From positions 2,181,501 to 2,245,500 of the forward strand of contig JAUISW010000001.1 of NCBI GenBank assembly GCA_030434875.1: a DNA stretch of 64,000 nt. The letters run 5' to 3'. The notes beneath the pieces were generated by a model. It worked only from the letters and a program-made list of their open reading frames with translations. It did no database searches and was not told where the DNA came from. Below are positions 6,391 to 26,694 of this stretch, piece by piece. Position 1 is the first letter of the stretch. Each line of letters begins with the position of its first letter. Origin of the DNA: Lachnospiraceae bacterium C1.1 (lineage in GTDB: Bacteria; Bacillota; Clostridia; Lachnospirales; Lachnospiraceae). Position numbers and translations under genes: made by a program.

Positions 6391-8120
6391 TAACCCTCTG
6401 CCTCCGAATCTTCAGCAACTCCACTGTTTTCTGAAATTGTCTCTTTTTCTGACATAGCCTGACCGCCAGAAACTGTATCATTTACCGAAACAGTTTCCCT
6501 GATTTCAGATACACTTTCCGTTCCCGATCCTCCATTGGTCAATGCAGCTGATCTTTCCGGATTCTTTTTGGTTGCTGAGAGTTTTACTCCTTCATTAAGC
6601 TGGGTTGAATAACTTGTGATCACCTCATCATCTGCGCTGAGACCCTCTTTTACTTCAACCTCCGTATCTCCATTTATTCCTACCGTAATGTTTCTTATCT
6701 CTGCGACACCATTATCATTCAGGTATACATAAGCCTGTTCACCATCGTAATATACAGCACTTACAGGTACTGTCAGTGCATTCCTTGATTCTCTCGTGAT
6801 CGTTCTTATCCTTACCTCAGATCCATTGATAAGGTCTGAGCTTCCTGAAATGCTTGCCTCGATCTTGAAGAGCTTCTTTTCAGAGTCTACGGTGTTTCCT
6901 ACATAAGTTATCACCGCATCGTAATCAGTAGCATTCTTTGTAACTACAGCTTCATTTCCCACGGTAATATTCTTTGCTGTCTCCTCTGCCACATAAAATA
7001 CGATTTTATTTTTTGCATCACTCTGTATCACATATGCCTGACTGCCGGAGGATGCCATGTTATGCAGCTCAATATCAATATCTGTTATCGTACCGCTTAC
7101 AGGTGCCGTCACCTGTGTATATTCAAGCGCAAGCTTTGCACTGTCAAGACTGGCATTAGCCTGTTCCAGTGAAGCCTTTGACGTGTCCACATTTGCCTGG
7201 GCACTGGCAAGCGAAGACTGTACTCCTGCTATAGTCGTGCCTTTTGTATAATTTTCGTAATCCTGCTGCTTTTTTTCTGCAAGCGCCTGGGCTTCCTGTG
7301 CCGTGTAATAGTTCTGCTCTGCAGTTGCCGCATTATAGCCGTATGTATCGCTCTGGAGTTTATTTGAGTCCTTTGAGCTTTCTGCACTTTCCACCTTATC
7401 CTTATAGGACTGATATGCAGTTTCGAGGCTGTCTATACTGCTGTATCCTGATCCCTGAAGCACTTTATCCTTCTGGTCTCCCGGTGCAGCATAATAATCA
7501 TCTATAAGCGACTTAAGCTTGTTTCTCTTTTTTTTGTATTTGCTGACATCATCATCTGAATCATCTGCCTGATCATTATAGTAATCCGAAGTCTCAGATG
7601 CAGATGCCAGAGTGTTTGCTGCACTTGCTACACTTGCCTTTGCCGAATCCACGGCATTTGCAAGCTGCTGTTCCGTTGTTGACATGGTTCCCAATGTTTC
7701 AAGTGCCGAGTACTGGGATGCCTGCTGTGCTGCCGTAGATGAATTAACACCGGCCTGTGCACTTGCTACAGAAGCCTGTGCCTGTGCAAGGCTTATTTGG
7801 GCAGACTCATCATCAATAGTAAATAAAAGGTCTCCTTCATTTACATGATCGCCGACCTCGAAATTTTTACTCGTAACCTCTCCTGATGTCTTCGGAACAA
7901 CTATAACCTCACTTGCAGCCTCAACCGTTGCAGCAAAATTAGAGCTTATGCTTAAGTTTCCAACACCCGGATTAGCTGTTTCTACTTCAACCAGTGCTTC
8001 TTCCTGTGATTCAGTCGCTTCAGCCGATGAAGACGGGGATGCACATCCTGTTGCAGCAGTTGCTGTAATTGTTAATGAAATGGTAATTGCAAGAATTTTT
8101 GAAAGCTTTGCCTTTTTCAA
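6390..8120 (-). CDS. RND periplasmic-adaptor-type lipoprotein (membrane fusion protein)
   Basis: 576 residues. A signal peptide ends in a lipobox with Cys26 (TATAATGC), so the mature protein is lipid-anchored outside the membrane. After a Ser/Glu-rich linker there is a biotinyl-lipoyl half-motif (SGEVTSKNFEVGDHVNEGDLL region), then an unusually long Ala/Ser/Gln-rich helical hairpin at about 100-330, the second lipoyl half (APVSGTITDIDI), a beta-barrel domain and a Ser/Glu-rich tail. It is first in an operon with the RND permease. The 250-base gap to the divergent two-component system suggests regulation by that system (inference). Confidence 0.9.
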   Translation of the reverse strand: MKKAKLSKILAITISLTITATAATGCASPSSSAEATESQEEALVEVETANPGVGNLSISSNFAATVEAASEVIVVPKTSGEVTSKNFEVGDHVNEGDLLFTIDDESAQISLAQAQASVASAQAGVNSSTAAQQASQYSALETLGTMSTTEQQLANAVDSAKASVASAANTLASASETSDYYNDQADDSDDDVSKYKKKRNKLKSLIDDYYAAPGDQKDKVLQGSGYSSIDSLETAYQSYKDKVESAESSKDSNKLQSDTYGYNAATAEQNYYTAQEAQALAEKKQQDYENYTKGTTIAGVQSSLASAQANVDTSKASLEQANASLDSAKLALEYTQVTAPVSGTITDIDIELHNMASSGSQAYVIQSDAKNKIVFYVAEETAKNITVGNEAVVTKNATDYDAVITYVGNTVDSEKKLFKIEASISGSSDLINGSEVRIRTITRESRNALTVPVSAVYYDGEQAYVYLNDNGVAEIRNITVGINGDTEVEVKEGLSADDEVITSYSTQLNEGVKLSATKKNPERSAALTNGGSGTESVSEIRETVSVNDTVSGGQAMSEKETISENSGVAEDSEAEG

Positions 8121-8279
8121 TTCTCCACTCCTCCTTCTTATCTATTCGGAATCAAAACCTTTTTTCTAAATCCGAAATCTCCTTAATATTATGACCCGCA
8201 ATGTTGCAGGCTTAAAGCCGCGAGGATATTGCGGCAAATTAATTCATTCGACTTATGATAAAATAGATTGATAAACATA

Positions 8280-8317
8280 AAATAAACTTTTTAATGCCAT
8301 TATCAAAGTTTATTTTT
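8280..8317. promoter_or_regulatory. 12-bp perfect inverted repeat between RND operon and two-component genes
   Basis: AAAATAAACTTT at 8280-8291 and its exact reverse complement at 8306-8317, spacer 14. A TATAAT at 8323-8328 follows, with TTATCA (8301-8306) 16 bases before it, so the right arm falls inside a probable promoter for the response regulator. The left 90 bases of this gap (8160-8235) also hold a small hairpin (GCCGC/GCGGC). A regulator site is an inference. Confidence 0.45.
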
Positions 8318-8373
8318 ATTTTATAATAAATATATATACTTTAGCTTGTTACGAAAAAACAATGGAGGTCAAA

Positions 8374-9054
8374 ATGTTCAATATACTTGTTGTTGAAGAT
8401 GATAAAAATACACGCAGATTAATGGAAGCTGTCATCAAAAGTTCAGGCTATTCTGTTTATACAGCCGAAAACGGGCTGAATGCATTTGACGTTCTTGACA
8501 GCCAGCAAATTGACCTGATCATTCTCGATGTAATGATGCCCGAAATGGATGGCTATACTTTCTTAAAAGAATTCAGGATATCAGATGATTCCACACCTAT
8601 CCTGATGATCAGTGCCAAAACTCTCCCCGATGATATAAAGAAAGGATTTAAGCTCGGAACAGATGATTATATGACAAAACCCTTTGACGAAGAAGAAATG
8701 ATACTTCGAATAAATGCCCTGCTCCGACGTTCTAAAATAACGAGTGAACATCTCCTGACTATCGATGACCTCATTCTTGACTATGACAGTTTTACTGTAA
8801 AGCGCGGAAACGAGCCGGAAATTCAGCTTCCGCAAAAGGAATTTCTCTTATTATATAAGCTGCTCTCCTACCCCGGTAAAATATTCACCCGATTACAGCT
8901 TATGGATGAATTCTGGGGAATGGATTCCGAATCCGGAGACAGCACTGTTACCGTACACATCAACAGACTCAGAAAGCGTTTTGAAGACTATAGCGAATTC
9001 AAAATCGAAACTGTAAGAGGCTTAGGCTACCGTGCCGTAAAAACAAATCAATAA
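8374..9054 (+). CDS. OmpR/PhoB-family response regulator
   Basis: 226 residues. Start set at ATG 8374 because GGAGG at 8364-8368 overlaps an earlier in-frame ATG. Receiver domain with the acidic pair at residues 9-10 (VVEDD), phospho-acceptor Asp52 (LIILDVMMPEMDG), a conserved switch Ser (MISAK) and Lys in MTKPFDEEE. A C-terminal winged-helix DNA-binding domain runs from about 125 to 224 (GYRAVKTNQ end). The histidine kinase starts 14 bases downstream. Transcribed away from the RND efflux operon, which is the obvious candidate target. Confidence 0.93.
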   Translation: MFNILVVEDDKNTRRLMEAVIKSSGYSVYTAENGLNAFDVLDSQQIDLIILDVMMPEMDGYTFLKEFRISDDSTPILMISAKTLPDDIKKGFKLGTDDYMTKPFDEEEMILRINALLRRSKITSEHLLTIDDLILDYDSFTVKRGNEPEIQLPQKEFLLLYKLLSYPGKIFTRLQLMDEFWGMDSESGDSTVTVHINRLRKRFEDYSEFKIETVRGLGYRAVKTNQ

Positions 9055-9068
9055 GATCGGAGAAAACA

Positions 9069-10208
9069 ATGTCAATAGAGCTTAATCAAACAAAGGAAAA
9101 CAAATCTTCCCAATGTGAAAATAATGCTAAGATATCAAAAGTAGTATACAAAAAAGTAACTCTTTCGATCGGAATAATAGTTTTTATATCATCTATTATT
9201 TCCCAGGTAATTTCCTCTGCCGTAACTTATAATTACTTAAAATTCACTCACGATGAATTTGAACAACAAAATATCTCCGGCGGGGCAATAGTTACTTCCT
9301 CCATTATAATTTTCCTCGGTATACTCTTCCTTGCCTGTATATGTATAGGCACCATATGCAGCTTTATTATAGTTAAGCTTCCGTTAAAACCCCTGTCGGC
9401 CATGATAGAATTCATTAACCGGCTTTCCGACGGAGATTTCTCAGCCAGGCTTTCTCTCCCCGGTAAAGAAATAGGCTATAAACCTTTTGCCAGCGTGATC
9501 TGCGCATTGAACCGCCTCGCCGAGGAACTTGAGAACAATGAAATGTTTAAATCCGATTTCATCAATAACTTTTCCCATGAGTTCAAAACCCCTATTGTCT
9601 CGATAAAAGGCTTTGCCAAACTCCTGAAAAACGGGAATCTGTCAGAAGAGGATAAAGAAAGCTATCTGGACATAATAATTGAAGAATCCAACCGGCTTTC
9701 CAATCTTTCAGAGAATGTCCTTAACTTAAGCAAACTTGAAAAACAAACTATCCAGACCAGTAATATAAATTTCAACTTTGCAGAACTCGTTCGGCGTGAT
9801 ATCCTCATGCTCGAGTCCAAATGGTCCTCAAAAGATATCAGTTTTGATATAGACCTCGATGAAATAAGCTATTTTGGAGATGCCAATCTGTTAAGCCAGA
9901 TATGCATAAATCTCATCGATAACGCCATAAAATTCTCACCTAAAAAAGGTGATATACGCATAAGTCTGAAGCGGTCCGACAGTGAAGACCATACTTTGGT
10001 ACTAGTAGTTTCAGATAATGGTATAGGAATGGATAAAGAAGCCTTAGCCCGTATGTATGACAAATTTTATCAGGCAGATCATTCTCATTCCACCGAAGGA
10101 AACGGTCTCGGACTCACTGTTGTAAAACGTATTGTTGATATCTATTCCGGATCTATCGAAGTAAAATCAGCCCCCAATGAAGGCTGCAGTTTTACAGTCA
10201 CATTATAA
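9069..10208 (+). CDS. Sensor histidine kinase (HAMP-HisKA-HATPase)
   Basis: 379 residues, start ATG 9069 with CGGAG upstream. Two transmembrane segments (about 31-55 and 74-101) flank a very short extracellular loop of about 20 residues. A HAMP region follows to about 155, then HisKA with phospho-acceptor His170 (NNFSHEFKTP), and an ATPase domain with N box (DNAIKFSP), G1 (DNGIGM) and G2 (GNGLGL). The tiny sensor loop suggests that it senses membrane stress or a partner protein rather than binding a soluble ligand (inference). Forms an operon with the response regulator; terminator at 10220. Confidence 0.93.
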   Translation: MSIELNQTKENKSSQCENNAKISKVVYKKVTLSIGIIVFISSIISQVISSAVTYNYLKFTHDEFEQQNISGGAIVTSSIIIFLGILFLACICIGTICSFIIVKLPLKPLSAMIEFINRLSDGDFSARLSLPGKEIGYKPFASVICALNRLAEELENNEMFKSDFINNFSHEFKTPIVSIKGFAKLLKNGNLSEEDKESYLDIIIEESNRLSNLSENVLNLSKLEKQTIQTSNINFNFAELVRRDILMLESKWSSKDISFDIDLDEISYFGDANLLSQICINLIDNAIKFSPKKGDIRISLKRSDSEDHTLVLVVSDNGIGMDKEALARMYDKFYQADHSHSTEGNGLGLTVVKRIVDIYSGSIEVKSAPNEGCSFTVTL

Positions 10209-10219
10209 ATCTGTTCCCC

Positions 10220-10278
10220 AGCCGGCTTCGTCGTTAGCATTCCCAAATAAAAGCTATCGACGGACTCCGGCTTTTTTC
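10220..10278 (+). terminator. Intrinsic terminator of the two-component operon
   Basis: AGCCGG (10220-10225) pairs with CCGGCT (10267-10272). Inner arms CGTCGTTAGC and GCTATCGACG pair imperfectly. T5 run follows. Confidence 0.8.
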
Positions 10279-10452
10279 TTTCCATATTATACCATAGTAT
10301 ATTTATTAAATCGTTATTAATTTTAAGACAATTTTTATTTCATTATAATTTTCTTTAGAAATAAAAAAGTGCCTTCGGCACTTCAACTCCCCTGCCCCTC
10401 ACTCATGAGGGGTGGGGTTTTCTTTTGCTCCATTTTCATTCATAATAGTTAT

Positions 10453-11601
10453 ATGAACATACTGCAAAAAATCTTTACCGACTACTATGAAACAATTATT
10501 TTCACAATGAAACCTCGCTCATCTGTCATTGAAAACATCGACAAGATGATTAATTGTGGCAATCCAGACTTTGGTGGTGCCATGTATGGATGCCCGGATT
10601 GCGGAAAACTTAAATTTGTTCCCTTTCGCTGTCACAGCCGCTTTTGTCCTTCATGCGGAAATAAGTATTCCATGGAACGCACCACCAACATGTCATTCAA
10701 GCTGATCAAGGTCAATCATAGACATTGCGTTTTTACCATTGCCGAAGATCTAAGGATTTACTTTTTACAGGATCGTTCTTTACTTAACTGCCTGTTTCAT
10801 GCTGTTAACAGTGTTATTTCCCATATGTTCCGCAAAATAAATAAATCAAAAAATTTCACTCCCGGTTTTATCATGGTCCTGCACACTTTCGGACGTGATC
10901 TAAAATGGAATCCGCATATTCACTGTCTAATATCTGAAGGCGGTTACAGTGACAACGGCGAATGGCGAAACGTAACTCATTTTAATTACAAGCTTCTTCG
11001 CAGTTCATTTCAAACTGCACTTTTAAATGAATTAGAACCTTATCTTGGCTCTTCCTTTAAGAAAGTCAAAGCTGCCTGTTATGACAAAAATAAACAGGGC
11101 TTCTATGTTTATGCCAAGCCCAACAAATGCAACCCTACCACCGTAATTAAATACATTGGACGTTACCTTGGCAGACCTGTCATTGCAACTTCACGTATTG
11201 ACAAATATGACGGTGATTATGTCACTTTCCACTACAACCGCCACGAAGATGACAAATATGTAGAAGAAACCATCCCTGCAACCGAGTTCATTGAACGTCT
11301 GATACGGCATATACCTGAAAAACACTTTAAGATGATACGTTATGGTGGTATTTATGCCCGTCACAGAGACATTGACAAAAATCTTAACCGCGCCATTTCA
11401 AAAGAAAAGCACTCATTTCTTCGTGGCTTCAATAAATGGCGTACTGCACAGCTTTCCGCGTTCGGATATGATCCTCTAAAATGCGATTGCGGTTCAACAA
11501 TGCTGTTCCTGGAACTATATTTTAATCATAAGCGCGTTTCTCTTGAAGAACTATACGAGAAAGCCATGTCCAAGTCTCGTGGATTGCGTTCATCTGCATA
11601 A
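10453..11601 (+). CDS. IS91-type HUH transposase
   Basis: 382 residues from ATG 10453; a longer in-frame GTG start at 10369 lies inside a hairpin and is rejected. N-terminal zinc-binding domain with Cys47, Cys50, Cys60, Cys65 and Cys68 (CPDCG, RCHSRFCPSCG). The HUH metal-binding motif His155-Ile-His157 (WNPHIHC) and the nicking-tyrosine motif KYIGRYLGRP (Tyr234, Tyr238) are both intact. This single-strand transposase would move the element by rolling-circle replication. The coding frame is complete, so it may be active. No clear ribosome site precedes the ATG. Confidence 0.9.
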   Translation: MNILQKIFTDYYETIIFTMKPRSSVIENIDKMINCGNPDFGGAMYGCPDCGKLKFVPFRCHSRFCPSCGNKYSMERTTNMSFKLIKVNHRHCVFTIAEDLRIYFLQDRSLLNCLFHAVNSVISHMFRKINKSKNFTPGFIMVLHTFGRDLKWNPHIHCLISEGGYSDNGEWRNVTHFNYKLLRSSFQTALLNELEPYLGSSFKKVKAACYDKNKQGFYVYAKPNKCNPTTVIKYIGRYLGRPVIATSRIDKYDGDYVTFHYNRHEDDKYVEETIPATEFIERLIRHIPEKHFKMIRYGGIYARHRDIDKNLNRAISKEKHSFLRGFNKWRTAQLSAFGYDPLKCDCGSTMLFLELYFNHKRVSLEELYEKAMSKSRGLRSSA

Positions 11602-11651
11602 CTTTATTAATCCGACTATACTTGGTATAATCCTTTCAGGAGGATACCAAC

Positions 11652-11825
11652 ATGAAACAAAACATTGAGAAACTGCGCAAAAAGTACATGGATAACCCAC
11701 CAGAAGGTTTTTCTCCCAAGGACATTCGCAATATGAGCGAGGATGAACTTTTGGATTTGGATTATTTCTTAAATGATGACGAACTTGATGACGATTTTGG
11801 AGAAGATGGTTTCTACATCTTTTAA
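11652..11825 (+). CDS. Small acidic protein (57 residues) following the transposase
   Basis: ATG 11652 with a strong ribosome site GGAGG at 11639-11643; a TATAAT-like hexamer lies just upstream (about 11626). The product starts MKQNIEKLRKKYMDNPPEG and ends in a strongly acidic tail (DELDDDFGEDGFYIF). No family is recognised. Its position inside the element suggests an accessory of the insertion sequence; the acidic character would fit a protein that masks a DNA-binding surface, but that is speculation. Confidence 0.65.
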   Translation: MKQNIEKLRKKYMDNPPEGFSPKDIRNMSEDELLDLDYFLNDDELDDDFGEDGFYIF

Positions 11826-11929
11826 TTTCCATACCGTCTGTTTGTCATGCATTCCTTCATTATTCATTTCAATTTAATGTCCGAACGTACGTTAGGATTT
11901 GTTGTCCAAAAAATTGGAATTTCCTATAA

Positions 11930-16117: not shown

Positions 16118-16699
16118 TTACGCCTGACTTACGGGATAGGCTTCCGGCAAGAGTTCGCAGTATCCCTCCATTAGAATTTTAAACTCTTCAAATGTAAATT
16201 TTGCACGAAATTCTTCCAGTTTTTCAATCTTATGATTTTTATGCGGATTTTTTCTATCCTTTGCAAAATAATGCTTTGCATTCCAGAATCCCATATCTGT
16301 AAATCTGGTAATGTCATTAAAAGCTATGGTCTTTGCCTCTATATCAACCTCCGGATGTGTATGGATCACAGCATGTCTCATTCTCAGAAGAAGAGTCTTC
16401 GCATTTACCTCTTCATTTAAGTTGAGAACTCTGAAATATCCATCATAAAATCCACGTGCAAAATAACTGTCAACTATATCCCCGTTTTCTTTATCGCCGT
16501 GTTTCTTAAGAAGCTCATCAGCCTTTGAGCCTTCTTTGAACGCCATAGTCTCCGGCAGCAGATCAAAGTCCGCTCCCTTCGGATACATTGTAAGACCCGT
16601 TAAAGCATTTATAAGAGCTGAAAAATCATCAGCCTCCGCACCCTCGAGCATTTTCTTTGTCTTTTCAGCGTAAAGCGCTATCATTTCTCTGTCTTTCAT
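16118..16699 (-). CDS. Hypothetical protein, 193 residues
   Basis: Start ATG 16699 with a GGAGG-like site about 12 bases upstream. Soluble, no signal peptide. Helical N-terminus (MKDREMIALYAEKTKKMLEG), then LTGLTMYPKGADFDLL, a motif RMRHAVIHTHPEVDIEAKTIAFND, and an aromatic C-terminal part. The His-rich HAVIHTHP stretch could bind metal, but I know no family for it. Downstream of the DUF1700 gene with a 50-base gap, so perhaps cotranscribed. Confidence 0.75.
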   Translation of the reverse strand: MKDREMIALYAEKTKKMLEGAEADDFSALINALTGLTMYPKGADFDLLPETMAFKEGSKADELLKKHGDKENGDIVDSYFARGFYDGYFRVLNLNEEVNAKTLLLRMRHAVIHTHPEVDIEAKTIAFNDITRFTDMGFWNAKHYFAKDRKNPHKNHKIEKLEEFRAKFTFEEFKILMEGYCELLPEAYPVSQA

Positions 16700-16748: not shown

Positions 16749-17240
16749 TTAGTCCTTAAGCCTCAGCAGGAGGATCAATACAACTATCATAAATACAGGT
16801 CCGAAGAAATAGAAAAGTGCACCTATAGCCTTAAATATCAGAACAAGGAACAGTATGATAACCGTAAGAATTGTAAAAAGTATGAGGGCAGCTTTCCATC
16901 CGCTGAAGATGTGCATATTATTTCTGCCATTTTTCTCTTTTCCGAATCCATACGAATACGTTCTCTTGTTTTCCCTGCCTGTATCAGAATCATAGTCAGC
17001 CTCAGCATAAGAAGATTTTGCCATTGGAGATGAAGTCTCGATTATCGTCTTTGCTATGAGTCTCGGGTCTCCGAGCTTCTCCATTACTTCTTCCTCGCTC
17101 TGCCCTTTCTGTATCTCCGTTGAAATATATTCCTCGTAAAAATTCATATTTTCATTGAAGACCTCCGGCGATACCTCACCGCTCAGAGCTCTTTTTAAGG
17201 CATACAAAAATTCCTGTTTTGTCATATTGTCGTTCTGCAT
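16749..17240 (-). CDS. DUF1700/HAAS-domain membrane protein
   Basis: 163 residues from ATG 17240, chosen because CGGAG lies 5 bases upstream; the longer start lacks a site. The N-terminal 70 residues are the HAAS-type helical domain (TKQEFLYALKRALSG, followed by a helix ending KLGDPRLIAKTI). Two transmembrane segments at the C-terminus (about 113-158) end with RLKD. Such proteins usually partner a PadR regulator, but none is adjacent. It starts 59 bases after the GLUG protein stop and may be the tail of the GLUG/MMPL operon. Confidence 0.8.
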   Translation of the reverse strand: MQNDNMTKQEFLYALKRALSGEVSPEVFNENMNFYEEYISTEIQKGQSEEEVMEKLGDPRLIAKTIIETSSPMAKSSYAEADYDSDTGRENKRTYSYGFGKEKNGRNNMHIFSGWKAALILFTILTVIILFLVLIFKAIGALFYFFGPVFMIVVLILLLRLKD

Positions 17241-17299
17241 AAAACTCCGCTTTCCTGACTGTTTTTTCGCGAGTAAACTCAAATCTGATTATAACACGT

Positions 17300-20200
17300 T
17301 TATCGTGTCTTTTTAAACCTTTTAACTATTATAAACACTGCCAGAATGACTAAAACAAGACTTCCGGCAACGATATGCGGAAGATAATGATATTTGTCCC
17401 GGATAATATAAAAACTTCCGTCCCCATCCATCTTAAATACCACATATTTTCCATCAGGATAACTTTCCACCGGAACTATTTTATCCCCGTTTTCTATAGC
17501 CACTCTGTACCAGTCTTTATAGCCTGTTGACAGAAGTCTTATGGTATATTCACCATCCGCTGCCGCCGCGTTATCTTTTATCTGAAAGATATACTTATCA
17601 ACAGTTTCATAATTTTCACCGGCATCTTTTTTATCTGCTTCGTATTTTTCATAGGCAAGGCTGCTGCCCTTTGTGAAATTGCCGGATACCAGCAATACCG
17701 GAAATGGTTCATCCGAAGCCAGTGTGCTTATCATGCTCGCATAGGTCACTTTTACCACAATATTCTGCCTTATATCTTGAAGCTCAGAAAAATCCATTGA
17801 CACTGTCTTCTTCCCATCACTTATAAAATCAGGAAGTTCGTCAGCACTTATACTGCTTCCATAATCTTTTTCTATGACAGCAGCCTTTTCATCATCAACT
17901 ATAAAAGTCACTCTGACTTTGCCGAAGTCCTCCGGTGTACCCTCTTTTTTCAAAAGCTCCTCATAGCTTATTTCCTCTGCTTCATCTGTGAGACTGAGCC
18001 CGTTTATCGCAGCTCTTCCATAGTCAACATATAAATTTCCGCTGGCAGAGGAGTTTTCTTCGTCAATAAGCATTCCTGCTACCGCTCCGTAGCGTTCACC
18101 ATTTCCCTCTATCTCTGTCATTGTCGTATTATTATAGAGATTACCTGCCATACCTGCTATTCCGCCGGCATAATCATTGCCCGAAATTGTCTGCATAGAA
18201 TAACAGTTTCTGATCACATTTTTTGCGTATCCTGCTATTCCTCCTGTGTAGTCTCCGTCTTCATTAGTTACCATTCCATAGTTTTGAGATGCGATGACCG
18301 CACCCACTTCCATACGTCCTACTATACCTCCGGCATAGCTGTTTCTTACATCCACACCGCCATAATTTTTACATCCATTCACGGTGGCCTGTTTTGTCCT
18401 TGTATATTTAAGGCTTAGCTGACCTCCGCTCACAACTTCAAAATCAGACTGCAGATCAATATCAACTCCGGCGAAGCCCGTAATACCTCCGCCATTAATA
18501 TCAGAGCTTATAAATCCATTATTTACACAGCCGATGATCTTTCCTTTTCCCGGATCTTTATCAGTTGTATCTGACACATCATCGAAGATATCATCGATAT
18601 CGTCTGTATTCTGTATTCGGCTGAGTTCGGCATCCAGCTCGTCAAATCCGTCATGCAGTGTATCATTTAAGAGATTCATTTCACTAACAATTTTATCCAT
18701 ATGATCCCTGATCTCTTTGTCAGAGCTTTTTAAGGAATCGCTTAAGGCATCCATCTGCGTTGCCATCATGTCGGTTTTAGACGTTATATCATCATCAGTC
18801 CCTCTGATATCTGTTTTATAACTGTCATAAGCGCCTCTCAGATAATCATCAAGTGCCTCTGAAGCATCCAGTGCATCAGACAGTCCGTCTTTGATCTCTC
18901 CGGCATTTTTGGCGATCCTGTTGCCAACCCCTTCTATCTGCTTTATCTCGTTATAAATATCAGTATTTAAGTTTTTAATTGCAGAGATATAAGAGCTCAT
19001 ATCGATACTGAGACCGCTTGAAGCAGAATTTTCTGTATCCTTTATTATCCTGATGATCTTATCAATATCATTCTTTATGGCTGTTGAATAATCTGCGGTT
19101 TCGATATCTTTAATATCTATTCCGTCAAATGCAGCCCTCAGATCATCTACTTTCCCTCTTATCTCTCCTTCCGTTATATCATCCTTCGATCTATAGTAGC
19201 TTTTATAGCCGCTTACTGTTCCTCTGAGGTCATCTACAGTAGTCCTGATGTCATCAATTTTCCCCTGTGTCTCGTCATCAGCACTCTGAGCTATGTCATT
19301 AAGCTCATCCATGAGATCATTCATCTTATCTATCTCATCACTGCTTCTGTCAAAAGCATCTTCACTATAGATATTCTCCGTATATGCTTCAAACTGGCCT
19401 GCGATCCCGCCGACATTTTTTCTGCCTGCTATATCTCCGCTGTTAACGCAGTTATAAAGAATACCTCTTTCATAGCCAACGATACCGCCATTATTATAAC
19501 CAAGATGTGAAAAGCCGACATTTCCGCTGTTTTCACAGTTTCTGATTATTCCGGAAGATGCTCCTGCTATGCCTCCGCTATAGTTTATTTTATCCTCATC
19601 CGTTATTTTTTCTTTGATATCATCATTTAAGAGATCTATCTCATCCGGATTCAGCTTTTCAAGATTCTTACTTCCATCATCTTCATTTATTTTTTTGAAA
19701 GCTGAAAGATGTTCGTCATCCTGCGGAATATTGTTAACAGATCCGCTGTTTTTTGCGCCATCGATCACGCCTTCATTAAATCCTGCTATACCTCCGCTGC
19801 GTCTTTTTGCCAGGATGATTCCTTCATTTCTGCAATTATCTATCTCGCCGGATTCGTCATTATGTCCGGCAATTCCTCCCGCAGCTTCAGAAGCTACAAG
19901 ACTTCCCCCGAAAACACAATTCTTTATATATCCCTTATTTATTCCGGCTATTCCGCCTATATTTTCTGCTTTTCCATCCGGTGCGATCTGCCCTTCAAGC
20001 CGCAGATCTTCAACTGTTCCGCTTTCCGTGACCGTCTTTATAAATCCGCTTTCTGATGCTGCATCTTCCAGCTTAAATCCCGTAATTTTATGTCCGTTTC
20101 CGTCAAAAGTCCCTGCCATGACAGCTATAGGTTCAAACCCACTGTCAGAAAGATCTATATCTTCAGTTAAAACTATCTTTTTTCCTGATGTGTATTTATC

Positions 20201-20365
20201 AGAGACAGCCTTCTTCGAAAACTCAACAAGCTCATCTGCGCTGGATATCTCCATATCCGCGGACCCGTATCCGCTCTCCGCTGCCGACAGAGGAATTATA
20301 TTCGTCAGCATGCAAAAGCTCATCAGCAGACCGAAGGCAGCTTTATAATATTTATTTACCTGCAT
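17300..20365 (-). CDS. Surface protein with GLUG repeats, central coiled coil and C-terminal membrane anchor
   Basis: 1021 residues. Signal peptide about 1-29 (FGLLMSFCMLTNIIPLSAA). GLUG-type beta-helix repeats run from about 80 to 330 (GGIAGINKG, GGIAGHNDES, GGIAGFNEG, GGIAGASSG, GGIVGYERG, GGIAGQFEA). An acidic, coiled-coil-like region follows to about 600 (including YYRSKDDITEGEIRGK), then a second GLUG block (GGGITGFAG, AGGIVGRME, TGGIAGYAK, AGGIAGMAG), two beta domains and one transmembrane helix (about 994-1014) with a basic tail (KRFKKTR). The start lies inside the MMPL gene (14-base overlap), so they are coupled. Its paralogue is at 23027-25999. Probably an extracellular partner of the transporter; molecular role unknown. 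Confidence 0.88.
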   Translation of the reverse strand: MQVNKYYKAAFGLLMSFCMLTNIIPLSAAESGYGSADMEISSADELVEFSKKAVSDKYTSGKKIVLTEDIDLSDSGFEPIAVMAGTFDGNGHKITGFKLEDAASESGFIKTVTESGTVEDLRLEGQIAPDGKAENIGGIAGINKGYIKNCVFGGSLVASEAAGGIAGHNDESGEIDNCRNEGIILAKRRSGGIAGFNEGVIDGAKNSGSVNNIPQDDEHLSAFKKINEDDGSKNLEKLNPDEIDLLNDDIKEKITDEDKINYSGGIAGASSGIIRNCENSGNVGFSHLGYNNGGIVGYERGILYNCVNSGDIAGRKNVGGIAGQFEAYTENIYSEDAFDRSSDEIDKMNDLMDELNDIAQSADDETQGKIDDIRTTVDDLRGTVSGYKSYYRSKDDITEGEIRGKVDDLRAAFDGIDIKDIETADYSTAIKNDIDKIIRIIKDTENSASSGLSIDMSSYISAIKNLNTDIYNEIKQIEGVGNRIAKNAGEIKDGLSDALDASEALDDYLRGAYDSYKTDIRGTDDDITSKTDMMATQMDALSDSLKSSDKEIRDHMDKIVSEMNLLNDTLHDGFDELDAELSRIQNTDDIDDIFDDVSDTTDKDPGKGKIIGCVNNGFISSDINGGGITGFAGVDIDLQSDFEVVSGGQLSLKYTRTKQATVNGCKNYGGVDVRNSYAGGIVGRMEVGAVIASQNYGMVTNEDGDYTGGIAGYAKNVIRNCYSMQTISGNDYAGGIAGMAGNLYNNTTMTEIEGNGERYGAVAGMLIDEENSSASGNLYVDYGRAAINGLSLTDEAEEISYEELLKKEGTPEDFGKVRVTFIVDDEKAAVIEKDYGSSISADELPDFISDGKKTVSMDFSELQDIRQNIVVKVTYASMISTLASDEPFPVLLVSGNFTKGSSLAYEKYEADKKDAGENYETVDKYIFQIKDNAAAADGEYTIRLLSTGYKDWYRVAIENGDKIVPVESYPDGKYVVFKMDGDGSFYIIRDKYHYLPHIVAGSLVLVILAVFIIVKRFKKTR

Positions 20366-22835
20366 CTTTTACCGCCTCACTAGCTTTACCCGTTTCCAGA
20401 GTAAATTTCATATCACCGTTTACCGTACCAACAAGATCTGCATCAATATACCCTGAAAAATATCCCTTTACATGTCCATTAAGCTCCATTACAGAAGCCT
20501 TGCGTTCAAGGCTCTGTCCTCCTGCGATCTGTCTGTGTATAACGAAAGCAGTCCTGTCAAAAAGCGGGTCGCAGATACAGAGTATCTGCGGAAGTATGAG
20601 CATTACAAGTATGATAGATGTAAGTGTTCCTCTTCCAAGGGCTATTCCGATCGCAGATATTACTGCATTACTTGTACAGTATCCTACCGCAAAACCACAT
20701 GCCGTAAGGATCGTTCCGGACGTAAGGATCGTTGAAAAGGACTGATTAAGGCTCGCAACAATAGCCTCTTTTCTGCTCGGAAGTTCTTTTCTGAGCACCA
20801 TGTATCTGTTTGTTATAACTATCGCATAATCTACAGTTGCGCCCATCTGTATTGAGCTCACGATCAGATAGCCAAGGAAATACATAGGAGTATTAGTGAG
20901 GTAAGGTATAGAGAAATTAATCCATATACTTCCCTGTATCGTTAGCAGCAGTACAAAAGGTACGCTTGCCGACTGGAATGTAAAGAGAAGTATCACACCT
21001 ACGAAAAATGCCGTAAGGGCAGATATAAGTGTATTATCCTTGCTGAAGGAAGCTGAAAGATCCTGGTTACTGGTAGGATCACCGACAAGATATATCCTGT
21101 TCGTATAATAACTTTGAACCATTTCCCTTACTTCATTTATATGTTCGAAAGTTTCTTCTCCCTCTACTTCACCATTCATCGTGAATACTATTCTCGAATA
21201 TTCTTCACCTTCGAGCTGTTTCCTGGCATTATCTATGCTTTCCTTTATATCATCAAGGTCTTCTGTCTGATCCGCACTCAGATTTATGGCATTTTTCTCT
21301 TTCTGTTCATATATATAATCGATCATATCAAGAACAGATATCTTATATTCATCAATACCGTCGATAAATGCTCCATAGGCTTCATTTTCCTTTGCATAAG
21401 CCGTATAAAGCAGTTTTACCAGTCCGGTATCAACATCAACTACCTCTGCAAGTTCTCTTGGATTAAGCTCATCCGTAAGAACATATTCTTTATCATCTCC
21501 GACATCTACATTTGCCAGCGCAGTTATATCACCGACATAGTCAAATTCAGTCAGTTTTTCGATAATCTCCTTTTCCTTGGTGTAATCACCTTTTGGAATC
21601 ACTATCGCCATCTGACTTCCTGTCTCAAAGGTTTGATCTATCCTGTTCTTCGCTCTGACATAATCAGTCATCTTTGCACATTTAGCCGAATATTTATCAA
21701 AAATATAAGGGCAGTTATTTGAGCAATATACAGCAAATACAAGCAATGCGATAAATAAGACCGGCATCACATGTCTGGTAGCATAAATGAAATTGCCGTA
21801 ATGATTGATCGTAGGAACGAAATTTTTGTGTCTGCTCTTTTCAATGATATTTCTGCACATCATTATAAGACAGGGCATAAACAGGAATACCGTAAGCATC
21901 GAAAATACAATTGATTTACAAAGTACAAGTCCCAGATCCCGTCCTATCTGGAAATGCATAAATACCAGCGCCAGAAGTCCTGCCATTGTGGTAAGCGAGC
22001 TTGAAGAGATTTCGACTATAGCCTTTGAAAGAGCCTGTATCATTGCTTCTCTTGAGTCTTGACCCTTATTTTTTTCTTCGAGATAGCGATGAAAAAGAAT
22101 AATAGCATAGTCTATGGCAAGGCCAAGCTGAAGTACTATATCCACTGCATTCGAAATAAATGATATTGTTCCGAAAACATAGTTTGTACCCTTATTGAGT
22201 ATTGCTGCCATTATAAATGTCGCAATGAATATCGGAACCTCTGCGTAAGTCTCAGATGTAAAAAGCAATACAACTACTATAACTATGGTAACTATTCCAA
22301 GGATAAATCTGATATCCGCCTGCAATTCTGCAGATTCATCAAGATCTACTGTCGTATAAACATAGCTGTCATAATCCTTGACATAATCCCTGACATCTGC
22401 GATCGCCTGCTGCGTAATATCGGCTTCTTTCTCATCAGTAAACATCACTGTGATCAGTGCCGCCGAATCTTTATAATAATCCTCAAGGCTTTCCTCGTTA
22501 TAATCGCTGTCATCAGGATCGTAGAATTTGACAGTATCAACACCCGCTATCTCAGCAATACCATCTGCTGCTATTTTCGCCCTGTCATAGGTTATATTTG
22601 CAAGAAGGATTTTGGCCGTTCCAAAGGTCTTAAATTCCTCATCCATGAGGTCAACGCCTATCCTTGTCTCCGTCGTATTCGGAAGATATTTTGCAACATC
22701 ATTTTCGACCTCAACTCTTCCCATTGATACGGCACAATATATTGCCATAACTATAAATAAAACAAAAAATCCCGATCTTTTATCTACAATGAATTCTGCT
22801 ATTCGATACATAGGATTATTCTTATTTGAACTCAT
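20352..22835 (-). CDS. MMPL-family RND transporter
   Basis: 827 residues in two similar halves. TM1 about 20-38, an extracytoplasmic domain to about 172, five clustered helices to about 340 and the same layout in the second half. The proton-relay Asp-Tyr pairs of MMPL proteins are present in both halves: Asp242-Tyr243 (AIDYAIILFHRY) and Asp669-Tyr670 (TVDYAIVITNRY). MMPL proteins move lipids, siderophores or peptides across the membrane; the cargo here is unknown. It lies between two paralogous GLUG/coiled-coil genes, and its stop overlaps the start of the anchored one. A 191-base gap with three hairpins separates it from the upstream paralogue. Confidence 0.93.
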   Translation of the reverse strand: MSSNKNNPMYRIAEFIVDKRSGFFVLFIVMAIYCAVSMGRVEVENDVAKYLPNTTETRIGVDLMDEEFKTFGTAKILLANITYDRAKIAADGIAEIAGVDTVKFYDPDDSDYNEESLEDYYKDSAALITVMFTDEKEADITQQAIADVRDYVKDYDSYVYTTVDLDESAELQADIRFILGIVTIVIVVVLLFTSETYAEVPIFIATFIMAAILNKGTNYVFGTISFISNAVDIVLQLGLAIDYAIILFHRYLEEKNKGQDSREAMIQALSKAIVEISSSSLTTMAGLLALVFMHFQIGRDLGLVLCKSIVFSMLTVFLFMPCLIMMCRNIIEKSRHKNFVPTINHYGNFIYATRHVMPVLFIALLVFAVYCSNNCPYIFDKYSAKCAKMTDYVRAKNRIDQTFETGSQMAIVIPKGDYTKEKEIIEKLTEFDYVGDITALANVDVGDDKEYVLTDELNPRELAEVVDVDTGLVKLLYTAYAKENEAYGAFIDGIDEYKISVLDMIDYIYEQKEKNAINLSADQTEDLDDIKESIDNARKQLEGEEYSRIVFTMNGEVEGEETFEHINEVREMVQSYYTNRIYLVGDPTSNQDLSASFSKDNTLISALTAFFVGVILLFTFQSASVPFVLLLTIQGSIWINFSIPYLTNTPMYFLGYLIVSSIQMGATVDYAIVITNRYMVLRKELPSRKEAIVASLNQSFSTILTSGTILTACGFAVGYCTSNAVISAIGIALGRGTLTSIILVMLILPQILCICDPLFDRTAFVIHRQIAGGQSLERKASVMELNGHVKGYFSGYIDADLVGTVNGDMKFTLETGKASEAVKDAGK

Positions 22836-22861
22836 TTAAACCTTTATCCCTTCCAAAAATT

Positions 22862-22985
22862 ATGACTTTTCGCCACTTCGTGCCTCAAAGTCATGCAAAC
22901 AGGCCATTTAAATGCAGCTGCGCTGCGGGCCTGTTTGGCACTTGTTTTAACTTATCACACGGAACCCGCAGTAAATGCGGATTCC
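22862..22985. repeat. Three tandem hairpins in the GLUG-MMPL gap
   Basis: Stems: ATGACTTT/AAAGTCAT (22862-22894 region); AAACAGGCC/GGCCTGTTT enclosing GCAG/CTGC (about 22897-22935); GGAA-CCGCA/TGCGG-TTCC (22961-22985). No T run follows, so they are not standard terminators; they may set RNA processing or stability within the operon. Confidence 0.5.
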
Positions 22986-23026
22986 TGCAATAAAGTCACC
23001 AAAACATATCCTTTAAAAATCTTCTT

Positions 23027-25999
23027 TTAAGAAAACAATCCGGAAAAAAATCCTTTTTTTCTTACAATATAAAACTCTGTCTCGTCTCCGATATCTGCAA
23101 TAAGATATTTTCCATCTCTGCTGCAATCCGCTGTTTCTAAGCCATTATCAGAAAGAAAAGCCAGCAGATCTTTTTTATTTTCATCCAGGATCCTTATTTT
23201 ATGCTTTCCCGGAATCATTCCATATTCGGATTCTGTAGTAAACGATATTTTGGAGACTATTTCGTAATCAGAAGTTCCTGAAATTCCTGCCTCATCTATT
23301 TCATCCTCTGATCTCACCAACAGTTCTGTTCCCGGATAAAATTTACCTTCAAGTATAAATTCAGGCTCATCTTCCTCTGTCGCAACAGCTGTAAGATAGG
23401 CTTTATATCTGGCCTCTACCAACATATTTTCACTGATACTATTAAAATCAGACACCGACCAGTATGCCATACTTTCATCTGTATCATGGGCAGATGGTAT
23501 ATCAACGGTTCTTATTGATTCCCCGTAATCGATCTTTATACGCTTTACGACATTTCCATCTTCCACAAAAGTCACCATCAGTTTCTTAAATGCCTCCGGT
23601 ATATCATTTCCGGAAATTATATCTTTATATCGTTTTTCCGTTGCTTCTTTATTATCTGTCCTTCCATTTACTGCATTTACCCTATTTGAGCAAAACTCAT
23701 TACCTGATACTTTTCCACCTTTTTCGAGGCTTCCAGCTATCGCTCCACTGTGTTCTTTTATCCCCAAGATACTTACTATTGCCTTATTATTTTCGATATT
23801 CATTCCTTTTCCGGCAATACCACCGATCTCTGCATTTCCGGAAATAGAACATACCGAATAGGAATTTCGTATTGTAAATGCACTTAAACCAGCAATTCCT
23901 CCAACATATTCTCCATCCTCTGCAATAATATTTCCATAATTTCCACAGGATATCATCGCACCACTCTCTGCTCTTCCGGCAATTCCACCCGAATAATTTT
24001 TCCGACTTATTATGTCTGCATAATTTTCCGACTCTAATATAGTTGCTCTTTTGCTTGAGCTGTATTTAAGACTCGGTATCCCAACAGATACTATTTCCGT
24101 CTCAGATTCAGTTTCATACCAGTAATCCACCGATCCGCAGATTCCGCCTGAATTTATATCTCCGTATATGTTTGCGTTATTTCTGCATTTAACTATCATT
24201 CCCGATGATACGGTCTCATCCTCATTATCCGAAATATCATCAAATATCTCCGTTATATCATCAGTTTCCCTGATATCTTCAAGAAGATCTTTAGCCTCAT
24301 CAAAACTATCACCGACAGCATCATTTAATTCCCGGTTCTTGGCTGATATCTCGTCAGTTTTCTTTCTTAATACGCTATCTGAGTCTTTTAATCCATCGTT
24401 TAGTGCATCCATTTCTGCCGCAATATTTTCAACATTCTGATTTATGTCATCACTGGTATTTCTTAGATCGCACTTATAACTGTCATAACTCTTCCTAAGA
24501 TAATCATCCAGTTCATTAAATTCATCCCTAAGCTCTTCAAGACTTTCTATCATTTTCTTTGTCTTTTTACTTAGCTTTTTCTCAGCCCCTTTAATTTCTT
24601 TTATATGCTGATCAATCGCCTTTGCCATATCCGATGCGTTTGAAGCAATTTTATTTAAGTTTTCCGGAACATCCACAAAGGAGCGATTCCTTATGGCAGA
24701 AGCAAGTGCCTTTATCAGGTTCGCCATGATCTCGACTCTTTCCTTTGCCGTTGTCCCCTGATATGAAGAAAACTCAAGCGTAAAATCCAGGTCCATATCA
24801 TCTGCTGTAGTTCTTATATTATCAAGCCTTCCTTCAAGCTCCTTCTCTGTTATATCGTCCTTGCTTCTGTAATACGCCTTATTTTCACTTATCTTCGCCC
24901 TCAAAAGATCCGCTTCATTTCTGATCGCGTCAAGATTATTCTGAAATTTCTGATCCTCCTCGGCTATAAGGCTGTTGAGCTCAGTAAGAAGTACATCAAG
25001 CTCGTCGAGCTCATCTCCTGCCTTGTCAAATGAATCATCTTCATAAACATGCATGCTGTAAGGCTCAAAAAGTCCTGCAATGCCCGCTGTATCTTTCCTG
25101 CCCGATATTTCTCCGTTATTTATAGAATTCCCAATATATCCTCTGCTGTATCCGGCAATCCCTCCGGTTAAATATCCGAGTGAACTATAACCAATCTTCC
25201 CATAATTTTCAGATTCATCTATAATACCGTTATTTACGCCGGCTATTCCTCCGGTCATCAATACCCTGATATCTTTTATCTTATATTCCAATTCATATCC
25301 ATATTTATCCCTTAAAATTTCATGAGCAGTTTCAGAATCCCTGTTGATCTCGCCATGATTTATGGAATGAACTACTTTTCCCTCATTAAATCCTGTAATA
25401 CCGCCTGTCCTTCTCTGTGAAAGAATATTTCCTCTGTTTACACAGGAGACTATATTTCCCGAAGGTCCGTTATGACCTGCAATACCTCCGGTATTTCTAT
25501 AGGAAAGAATAGTTCCGTTAAAAACGCAGTTGATCAATAATCCATTGTTCTCTCCTGCTATACCGCCTATATCTTCACTTTCCTTCCCTCCGCAGATATC
25601 AGCATATATCATAAGGTCTTTAACAATCCCTTTTTTCGTCAGCTCTCTGAATACGCCATTTATCGAATCATTTGACGATATGGAAATGCCCTTTATTTTA
25701 TGTCCGTTTCCATCAAAAACACCCGCCATTAAAGCTATTGGTATAAATTTTTTCCCTGAAAAATCCAGATCATTGACCAGCTTAAAAGTTTTTCCAAGGC
25801 TATAGGATTCATTAACACTTTTCTTTGTCAGTTCTTCAAAATCTTTTATATCTGAAATTTCTATTATCGTCTCAGATTCGATATGATCTTCAGAAACAGT
25901 ATTTTTAATCCCGGCATAAACAAAAGCATTGCAATTGGAAAATAAAAGCGCAATCCAAACTATAAATGCTGTTAACTTAAAAATTCTTTTTTTCTGCAT
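23027..25999 (-). CDS. Secreted GLUG/coiled-coil protein, paralogue without membrane anchor
   Basis: 990 residues from ATG 25999, preceded by AAAGGA; the longer in-frame start at 26107 would read through the operator and is rejected. Signal peptide (KLTAFIVWIALLFSNCNAFVYA). The same order of parts as the 17300-20365 protein follows: GLUG repeats (GGIAGENNG, GGIAGHNGPSG, GGITGFNEG, GGIAGVNNG, GGIAGYSRG), a central coiled-coil region with the shared AYYRSKDDITEKELEGR, a second GLUG block (GGICGSVD, GGIAGRAES, GGIAGLSA, GGIAGKG) and the C-terminal beta domains. It stops at KKGFFSGLFS with no transmembrane helix. First gene of the operon, divergent from the TetR regulator. Confidence 0.87.
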   Translation of the reverse strand: MQKKRIFKLTAFIVWIALLFSNCNAFVYAGIKNTVSEDHIESETIIEISDIKDFEELTKKSVNESYSLGKTFKLVNDLDFSGKKFIPIALMAGVFDGNGHKIKGISISSNDSINGVFRELTKKGIVKDLMIYADICGGKESEDIGGIAGENNGLLINCVFNGTILSYRNTGGIAGHNGPSGNIVSCVNRGNILSQRRTGGITGFNEGKVVHSINHGEINRDSETAHEILRDKYGYELEYKIKDIRVLMTGGIAGVNNGIIDESENYGKIGYSSLGYLTGGIAGYSRGYIGNSINNGEISGRKDTAGIAGLFEPYSMHVYEDDSFDKAGDELDELDVLLTELNSLIAEEDQKFQNNLDAIRNEADLLRAKISENKAYYRSKDDITEKELEGRLDNIRTTADDMDLDFTLEFSSYQGTTAKERVEIMANLIKALASAIRNRSFVDVPENLNKIASNASDMAKAIDQHIKEIKGAEKKLSKKTKKMIESLEELRDEFNELDDYLRKSYDSYKCDLRNTSDDINQNVENIAAEMDALNDGLKDSDSVLRKKTDEISAKNRELNDAVGDSFDEAKDLLEDIRETDDITEIFDDISDNEDETVSSGMIVKCRNNANIYGDINSGGICGSVDYWYETESETEIVSVGIPSLKYSSSKRATILESENYADIISRKNYSGGIAGRAESGAMISCGNYGNIIAEDGEYVGGIAGLSAFTIRNSYSVCSISGNAEIGGIAGKGMNIENNKAIVSILGIKEHSGAIAGSLEKGGKVSGNEFCSNRVNAVNGRTDNKEATEKRYKDIISGNDIPEAFKKLMVTFVEDGNVVKRIKIDYGESIRTVDIPSAHDTDESMAYWSVSDFNSISENMLVEARYKAYLTAVATEEDEPEFILEGKFYPGTELLVRSEDEIDEAGISGTSDYEIVSKISFTTESEYGMIPGKHKIRILDENKKDLLAFLSDNGLETADCSRDGKYLIADIGDETEFYIVRKKGFFSGLFS

Positions 26000-26043
26000 A
26001 TTTTCCTTTTCAACACAAAGTCTATTTATAAACTGATTTCTAT

Positions 26044-26064
26044 TAATCAACACAGTGTTGATTA
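26044..26064. promoter_or_regulatory. 21-bp palindromic operator between GLUG gene and tetR
   Basis: Ten-base arms TAATCAACAC (26044-26053) and GTGTTGATTA (26055-26064) are exact complements around a single central A. The right arm covers the -35 of the tetR promoter; the left arm abuts the promoter region of the GLUG operon. Size, symmetry and position fit a TetR-family operator controlling both directions. Confidence 0.8.
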
Positions 26065-26086
26065 TTTTCTTAACAAGTATTATAAT
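26058..26086 (+). promoter_or_regulatory. Promoter of the tetR gene
   Basis: TTGATT (26058-26063), 17-base spacer, TATAAT (26081-26086). The -35 lies in the palindrome, predicting autorepression. Confidence 0.75.
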
Positions 26087-26130
26087 GACATTCATAAAGA
26101 AAATCAACAGATTTAACGGAGAATTTATTT

Positions 26131-26694
26131 ATGAAGGACGAACACCTCGACAGGCGAACAAAAAAGACCCGCAAGCTCTTATGGGACGGGCTTGCAAAAC
26201 TCATGCTCGAGCATGACATCAATGAGATAACCGTCAAAGATCTGACAGAACTGGTGGATATTAACAGAAGTACATTTTATATACACTACAAGGATATCTA
26301 TGATTTATTAAATTCTATTGAAGCTGAACTTTTAGACGATTTTGATGAATTGTTAAACTATAATGTAGATGGATCAAAAGATGTTCACCAGCAGGTCATG
26401 CCTATACTTGCAACACTTTACTCGAGGCTCTATGAACAGAAAAATCTTGCCAGCGCTTTTCTTGGTCCTCATGGTGACGCATCATTTATATATGCCCTCC
26501 AATCGCTTTTAAGCAAAAAGATCACTGATCTCTTAAAAAATGACTCCACTGATGAAGAAATATACGCTTTCTATTCAGCCTTTTGTTTCAGCGGCTGTGT
26601 CGGAATAATCAAAGAGTGGATAAAAACAGGCTATAAGAAAAAGCCTGACGAAATGGCCGAAATCACGGCAAAGCTTCTCATCAATGGAATTTAG
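26131..26694 (+). CDS. TetR/AcrR-family transcriptional regulator
   Basis: 187 residues, ATG 26131 with CGGAGA upstream. N-terminal helix-turn-helix at about 30-60 (DINEITVKDLTELVDINRS then TFYIHYKDIYDLL). The C-terminal ligand domain ends with a motif (GCVGIIKEWIKTGYKKKPDEMA) seen in a TetR subfamily often placed beside MMPL transporters in Firmicutes. It is divergent from the GLUG/MMPL operon and very likely represses it through the palindrome at 26044-26064 (inference). Ligand unknown. Confidence 0.92.
   Translation: MKDEHLDRRTKKTRKLLWDGLAKLMLEHDINEITVKDLTELVDINRSTFYIHYKDIYDLLNSIEAELLDDFDELLNYNVDGSKDVHQQVMPILATLYSRLYEQKNLASAFLGPHGDASFIYALQSLLSKKITDLLKNDSTDEEIYAFYSAFCFSGCVGIIKEWIKTGYKKKPDEMAEITAKLLINGI

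Follow-up and report, generated by a model that had tools for sequence, protein, structure and literature searches.

RND/MMPL pumps of Gram-negative bacteria and mycobacteria use partners or domains that carry the substrate across the envelope. To our knowledge, the workings of RND/MMPL pumps in single-membrane bacteria are poorly known. For mycobacterial MmpL5, a periplasmic coiled-coil tube has been proposed as the route by which substrate crosses the wall (PMC12501195). FarE of Staphylococcus aureus is described as an MMPL-type exporter of linoleic acid beside a divergent TetR gene (PMC12671165). Here we describe a locus of Lachnospiraceae bacterium C1.1 (assembly GCA_030434875.1) in which an MMPL/RND-type transporter gene lies between two genes for large proteins with GLUG-type beta repeats and a TetR-family regulator faces the operon. 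The locus is part of a stretch of 64,000 nucleotides (contig JAUISW010000001.1, positions 2,181,501 to 2,245,500 of the forward strand), hereafter the window. The MMPL protein and its GLUG partner probably form one two-part export machine, with the GLUG protein as the dedicated outer subunit.

The operon is transcribed from the minus strand in the order GLUG1 (23027-25999, 990 residues), MMPL (20352-22835, 827 residues) and GLUG2 (17300-20365, 1021 residues). GLUG1 has a signal peptide, an N-terminal GLUG-type beta block (N block), a helical rod, a C-terminal GLUG block (C block) and a C-terminal beta domain, and GLUG2 has the same architecture plus a C-terminal membrane anchor. As the first-pass annotation had noted, two paralogous proteins of about 1000 residues with the same domain order bracket the transporter; they are 38% identical over 964 aligned positions, including the motif YYRSKDDITE common to both. 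The overlap that it reported between the second GLUG gene and the transporter gene amounts to 14 bases, and the TetR gene (26131-26694, plus strand) is, as it had stated, divergent from the minus-strand operon. The Pfam family Glug (PF07581) matches GLUG2 at 31.4 bits against a cut-off of 20.5. No Pfam Glug match is among the matches listed for GLUG1, and a Glug search of the whole genome gave the GLUG2 site only; GLUG1 is therefore GLUG-like by homology to GLUG2. Pfam Glug is matched at E <= 0.01 by 20 of the 28 members of the GLUG homologue set. The GLUG1 open reading frame was listed from a TTG at 26107 (23027-26107), and the ATG at 25999 is the likelier start because a promoter-like pair for the minus strand lies at 26107-26079, an argument that is only suggestive since comparable sites are no commoner in the region than in shuffled sequence.

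The locus resembles MmpS5-MmpL5, as described in the available part of that report, in that an operon encoding an RND/MMPL pump adjoins a repressor gene. However, in MmpS5-MmpL5 the coiled coil lies within the pump and the separate partner is the small Ig-like MmpS, whereas here the rod lies in a separate protein of 1000 residues, between two beta blocks. No operon protein matched an MmpS family, and no further same-strand open reading frame of at least 100 residues lies between the operon genes. The likeness to FarE/FarR is in the regulator, a divergent TetR protein, which binds in the intergenic segment that the two genes share (PMC12671165). The available text of that report mentions no large outer partner, whereas the operon type found in the window carries one or two.

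GLUG proteins for comparison were taken from genome samples drawn regardless of MMPL, comprising 200 genomes of the same family, 398 of the phylum and 391 of the class. Altogether, 75 of 76 GLUG-rod-GLUG loci have an MMPL gene directly beside or fused to the GLUG gene. In the family sample, a locus was counted if its match spanned both repeat blocks as well as the rod, and MMPL directly adjoins GLUG in 29 of 30 such loci; a GLUG gene of G168, broken into pieces on short contigs of which two show MMPL beside it, was counted apart. All six genomes of the phylum sample with a full or contig-cut copy (the window's own excluded) have MMPL. The class sample contains 47 genomes (of 391) with a match at E <= 1e-40, and each of the 40 newly fetched loci has MMPL directly upstream or fused; the other genomes were the window's own, G022, G060 and G341, which were already in the set, and G733, G835 and G837, whose short matches were not fetched. 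Together, the linked loci represent 18 families, as numbered in the phylum and class samples. Among the 77 named loci, the MMPL gene is in the fetched stretch of 71, and in the remaining six (L046, L050, L053, L067, L074 and L078) the GLUG gene runs into the contig end. The two genes overlap in 79 of 87 downstream pairs when starts are set by the longest open reading frame; the GLUG genes of L251, L252 and L256, split into several open reading frames, were left so.

Nineteen controls (10 family and 9 phylum loci) were chosen as apparently repeat-only matches, and none of them has MMPL in the fetched stretch. On rechecking, 18 had no alignment to the rod, giving 0 of 18 loci with MMPL, and L188 was excluded for one open reading frame that aligned over the rod; in L143 and L147 the upstream side is cut off by the contig end and invisible. 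GLUG genes scattered without MMPL, the pattern that the first-pass annotation had considered contrary to its proposal, thus exist in the rod-less form, and for the rod architecture a single orphan was found. For the reverse comparison, the 200 family genomes were searched with an MMPL profile, at most four candidates being scored per genome. Of the 31 matches that reached 800 bits or more, 30 have a GLUG partner beside them, and the remaining one, in G016, runs into the edge of its contig. Scores below 800 bits include two contig-cut fragments of G168, both with GLUG. These genome comparisons give good support to the view that MMPL and GLUG act as a unit.

Eight loci encode MMPL and GLUG as a single open reading frame: L061, L062 and L064 of the named loci (1806, 1862 and 1831 residues) and L264, L265, L266, L267 and L269 of the class sample, the L266 frame being truncated where its contig stops. 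The fused rows require three changes on a tree of 145 GLUG proteins, and the starred branches force three, although these may also stand for one gain and two losses. At all eight junctions a linker leads from the last MMPL helix to what was the signal peptide; this linker is short in L061 and in the fusions of the class sample, and longer in L062 and L064. The former signal peptide could act there as one more membrane helix and so bring the GLUG part to the outer side. The annotation's claim that the GLUG proteins are the outer part of an MMPL machine is supported as regards dedicated partnership, for which the 75 of 76 loci and the fusions at three places on the tree speak; the outer position is kept here as a probable reading. 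The pairing of two GLUG proteins is not the basic design. The upstream and downstream copies of the three-gene loci form one group of 32 rows (support 100) within a larger, single-partner family, and the basic unit is therefore MMPL with one GLUG protein. The additional GLUG copy of the window, GLUG1, is a duplication of its lineage that seems to have lost its anchor. Gene order is GLUG-GLUG-MMPL in L036 and L037. Trees were built by a quick method without bootstrap, and the first GLUG tree had 110 rows after removal of 13 duplicate or near-identical locus identifiers.

The partner varies in one part of its length. In 110 full-length GLUG proteins the N block has 214-290 residues and the C block 179-206, and the rod ranges from 164 to 841 residues (median 278.5). 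Glycine and proline make up 7% of the rod as opposed to 20% and 17% of the N and C blocks (medians). Both ends of the rod are nearly constant, with a median of 54 residues (range 36-58) for the first segment and of 41 (range 22-48) for the last, and the middle segment, at 41 to 669 residues, is the main source of length variation. Constant ends around a variable middle are the pattern expected of a hairpin with a conserved base, and the rod may thus be a hairpin of variable reach. Rod matches to Apolipoprotein, Baculo_PEP_C, SMC and similar families fell below cut-off and were rejected as coiled-coil matches. The C-terminal beta domain, which we took to resemble the InlB-type beta-grasp repeat, was not confirmed as such by Pfam, two fragments of it giving no match to that repeat.

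By a simple hydropathy rule, 100 of the 110 full-length GLUG proteins carry a C-terminal hydrophobic helix. In GLUG2 the helix is followed by a basic tail, and GLUG1 has neither, which fits the annotation's description of one anchored and one secreted protein. The helix is missing in GLUG1 of the window and its two nearest relatives (L048 and L049) and present in the upstream copies of L033 and L034; since these other upstream copies are anchored, the secreted form looks derived.

The transporter matches the Pfam family MMPL (PF03176) over two stretches at 149.4 bits (cut-off 20.5). It was not assigned to the named NCBIfam subfamilies HAE3, ActII or MmpL3, the best score being 137.2 bits for TIGR00921 against a cut-off of 351.9. 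The aspartate-tyrosine pairs D242-Y243 and D669-Y670 are invariant in 66 aligned MMPL rows, which are among the nearest homologues. Of 105 partner MMPL proteins, 100 have both pairs; the remaining five are cut by contig ends and have one pair each. The retention of these pairs, which we take to be the proton-relay residues of transmembrane helices 4 and 10, as in MmpL3, suggests that the MMPL protein is probably an active pump. Past the last membrane helix it ends in a glycine-periodic tail, GHVKGYFSGYIDADLVGTVNGDMKF (window 20352-20600); judged by a simple pattern, 67 of 87 GLUG-linked MMPL proteins have a tail like it. The tail was not seen at the eight fusion junctions, and no Pfam domain matched there.

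The regulator belongs to the TetR family (TetR_C_8, 63.2 bits), and the gap between its gene and the operon contains a perfect palindrome of 21 bp, TAATCAACACAGTGTTGATTA (26044-26064), that is a probable TetR operator. It is the only match in the 64 kb at up to three mismatches (0.01 expected); it overlaps a -35-like hexamer of the plus strand and lies just downstream of a -10-like hexamer of the minus strand. Copies of the 17-bp core of the palindrome that differ from it at one to three positions are found within the TetR-operon gap, or at its edge, in L033, L034, L038, L039, L040, L045, L048, L049, L086 and L120; in L107 that gap has a site with one middle base fewer. No site precedes the operon in L042, L047, L063 and L068, where no TetR match was found either, nor in L087, where the gap is about 16 bases. 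Three-mismatch matches do occur elsewhere in L087, so single weak matches are no proof. The layout is that of FarR/FarE, with a divergent TetR gene and an inverted-repeat putative operator in the shared intergenic region. TetR homologues are also the most widely recurring neighbour cluster, at 30 of 97 loci, with 93% on the opposite strand. An ABC-transporter-like cluster occurs at 20 loci at variable distance and strand, and another cluster at 13.

The tube proposed for MmpL5 and the FarE/TetR parallel together make it the best reading that the locus encodes a pump for which a separate protein with beta repeats provides the coiled-coil outer element. The pump would be powered by the proton gradient, as the conserved aspartate-tyrosine pairs suggest, and would take up an amphipathic substrate, for example a lipid or fatty-acid-like compound, and release it outside. 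The two beta blocks of the GLUG protein, usually held to the membrane by its own C-terminal helix, may be in contact with the pump and stack above it as one beta-solenoid. The inserted rod would then be an antiparallel hairpin that extends outward across the peptidoglycan, guiding the substrate or shielding it; passage through the wall is its presumptive role and an amphiphile the presumptive cargo. TetR would repress the operon by way of the palindrome until released by the substrate.

Several observations weigh against this proposal. The orphan L138 (G047:C8) has a full-length GLUG-rod-GLUG gene and no MMPL neighbour in the fetched stretch; its genome, G047, has another GLUG copy with MMPL. 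L188 is a weaker candidate orphan, in which an open reading frame aligned across the rod at about 120 bits lacks MMPL. That frame (7467-11855) encodes a GLUG protein of 1462 residues from another family, perhaps a distant relative with another role. An MMPL protein with an intermediate score of 420 bits, in G157, is not accompanied by a GLUG gene. Ten of the 110 GLUG proteins, GLUG1 among them, have no C-terminal membrane helix by the hydropathy rule, one of the ten (L043) being cut by the contig end. The correlation of 0.86 between MMPL and GLUG distances over 80 pairs agrees with the proposal but is expected anyway of linked, vertically inherited genes. Finally, the neighbour clusters of the 97 loci hold no substrate-making gene that recurs near MMPL-GLUG, and the idea that such a gene might identify the substrate was rejected.

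The last observation could mean that the substrate comes from outside, and a second account makes use of it: MMPL would be a FarE-like, TetR-controlled detoxifying efflux pump, and the GLUG protein would be an outer accessory that binds or sequesters a toxic amphiphile or braces the pump in the wall and offers no path for the substrate. The divergent TetR gene with its recurring palindrome suits this account, and FarE/FarR of S. aureus, which has the same divergent TetR-MMPL layout, exports linoleic acid (PMC12671165). Taken alone, however, efflux leaves unexplained why the rod is so variable between constant beta blocks and why a partner of 1000 residues stands beside nearly every sampled MMPL of the subfamily, and we regard it as rather unlikely. 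Still less likely is that the GLUG protein is mainly a surface adhesin or fibre and that what MMPL exports is a lipid or factor needed to assemble or display it. GLUG repeats are also found in other surface proteins, repeat-only plasmid matches are annotated as fimbrillin family or GLUG motif protein, and stalks that raise a head typically vary in length as well. However, what flanks the rod is the beta blocks and not a separate head, the anchor and the order of the fusions would put the blocks near the membrane, rod-less GLUG loci lack MMPL (0 of 18), and fusion to a pump argues for a subunit. Adjacency through shared ancestry only, for which it can be said that the flanking HAAS and RlmL genes are conserved in close relatives too and local synteny alone is weak evidence, is contradicted by the sampled genomes, in which the linkage holds in 18 families while other neighbours change, survives the change of order in L036 and L037 and is joined by fusions at three places on the tree, and it is hardly credible.

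The annotation had further proposed that the GLUG proteins stand in for YhgE/Pip, proteins that likewise have long coiled coils at the Gram-positive surface. This part is not borne out. There is no sequence match between the two: no YhgE family is among the NCBIfam matches of the GLUG proteins at E up to 0.1. YhgE was not found in the window's genome. It occurs together with MMPL-GLUG in 4 of 200 family genomes, on separate contigs, where about 6 co-occurrences are expected if the two are independent; therefore neither excludes the other. MMPL is also rarely near YhgE, being in the fetched stretch of 1 of 16 YhgE loci, and that MMPL has a different partner of its own.

Another parallel is offered by a sister MMPL subfamily of the same bacterial family, whose members score 344 bits or less on the MMPL profile. 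Eight of its loci (L213-L220) were picked from the next-best MMPL scores, and in seven of them, L216 being the exception, the MMPL gene is directly followed by a gene for a different secreted protein. This protein consists of a beta head and a long coiled coil; the head carries a DYG motif, an FTS.KN-like motif lies near the C-terminus, and an amphipathic tail is often present. However, this partner is unrelated to the GLUG family. None of five scanned sister partners matched GLUG; the xxxLxxG heptad model is matched by two of them, and the sole Pfam match over cut-off is the coiled-coil model Sec3_CC, in L220. Three sister partners gave weak GLUG-profile scores of 15-36 bits in the coiled coil only, which are read as coiled-coil composition. 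Homology of the two partner types was rejected because their profiles align over 34 columns only, at the signal peptide.

A broader picture can be drawn tentatively. Single-membrane Clostridia may possess an RND machine with a wall-crossing conduit supplied in trans, in which a beta-solenoid collar, interrupted by a coiled-coil hairpin of adjustable length that serves as ruler and guide through the peptidoglycan, is bound to MMPL and has repeatedly been fused with it; the sister branch would work likewise with its unrelated coiled-coil partner, and an outer coiled-coil subunit would be general for Gram-positive MMPL pumps. This is possible, though it is less secure than the two-part machine itself.

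Other features of the region lie outside the core unit. The gap of 191 bases between GLUG1 and MMPL is mostly filled by a repeat of about 136 bp (22850-22985, minus strand) that is dispersed in the genome. Counting itself, it has at least 49 matches there (40 of 83 candidates scored), and 22 of these are nearly full-length, with 89-100% identity. The surrounding 171 bases fold into several hairpins (z-score -5.6). The gap measures -14 to +18 bases in the relatives L033, L034, L048 and L049; the element therefore looks like a dispersed MITE-like (miniature inverted-repeat transposable element) or REP-like (repetitive extragenic palindrome) repeat that was later inserted into the operon and is no part of the system. 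A gene for a HAAS-domain membrane protein (16749-17282, minus strand) lies 17 bases downstream of GLUG2. It occurs in close relatives only and is therefore not counted in the core unit; HAAS, HEPN and RlmL genes were all rejected as system parts on the same ground. Adjoining the operon, 16118-16699 gives a sub-threshold HEPN match (pEK499_p136, 25.1 against 26.6 bits) and is conserved in close relatives. A distant homologue of the GLUG-rod protein (28% identity, 70% covered) is encoded at 3963-7172 of NZ_OY725729.1, a 38-kb record from a plasmid collection that is labelled Monoglobus pectinilyticus.

The titles, abstract beginnings and passages of the literature searched, which mostly excludes subscription papers, contain no description of the MMPL-GLUG pair, and the annotation's view that the system is undescribed agrees with this. 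Most papers retrieved for GLUG deal with unrelated words. A GLUG-domain protein was found as an activator of NF-kappaB in a screen of the infant microbiome, with no MMPL mentioned in the available text (PMC8480279), and MMPL is listed as a candidate transporter of queuosine precursors in a report whose tested candidate, in the part available, came from another phylum (PMC11130926). The evidence points to an apparently undescribed two-part export machine of gut Clostridia in which the new element is the type of partner of an RND/MMPL pump. Such a pump would have a dedicated outer subunit in 18 of the families sampled from Clostridia and the phylum to which they belong, and the gut genera with the system that are named in records include Enterocloster, Roseburia and Flavonifractor. 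Two unrelated coiled-coil partners stand beside two branches of one pump family. The natural fusions suggest a stoichiometry and a topology, which makes the question directly testable, and a large protein family that most sources leave unnamed would thereby gain a working hypothesis.

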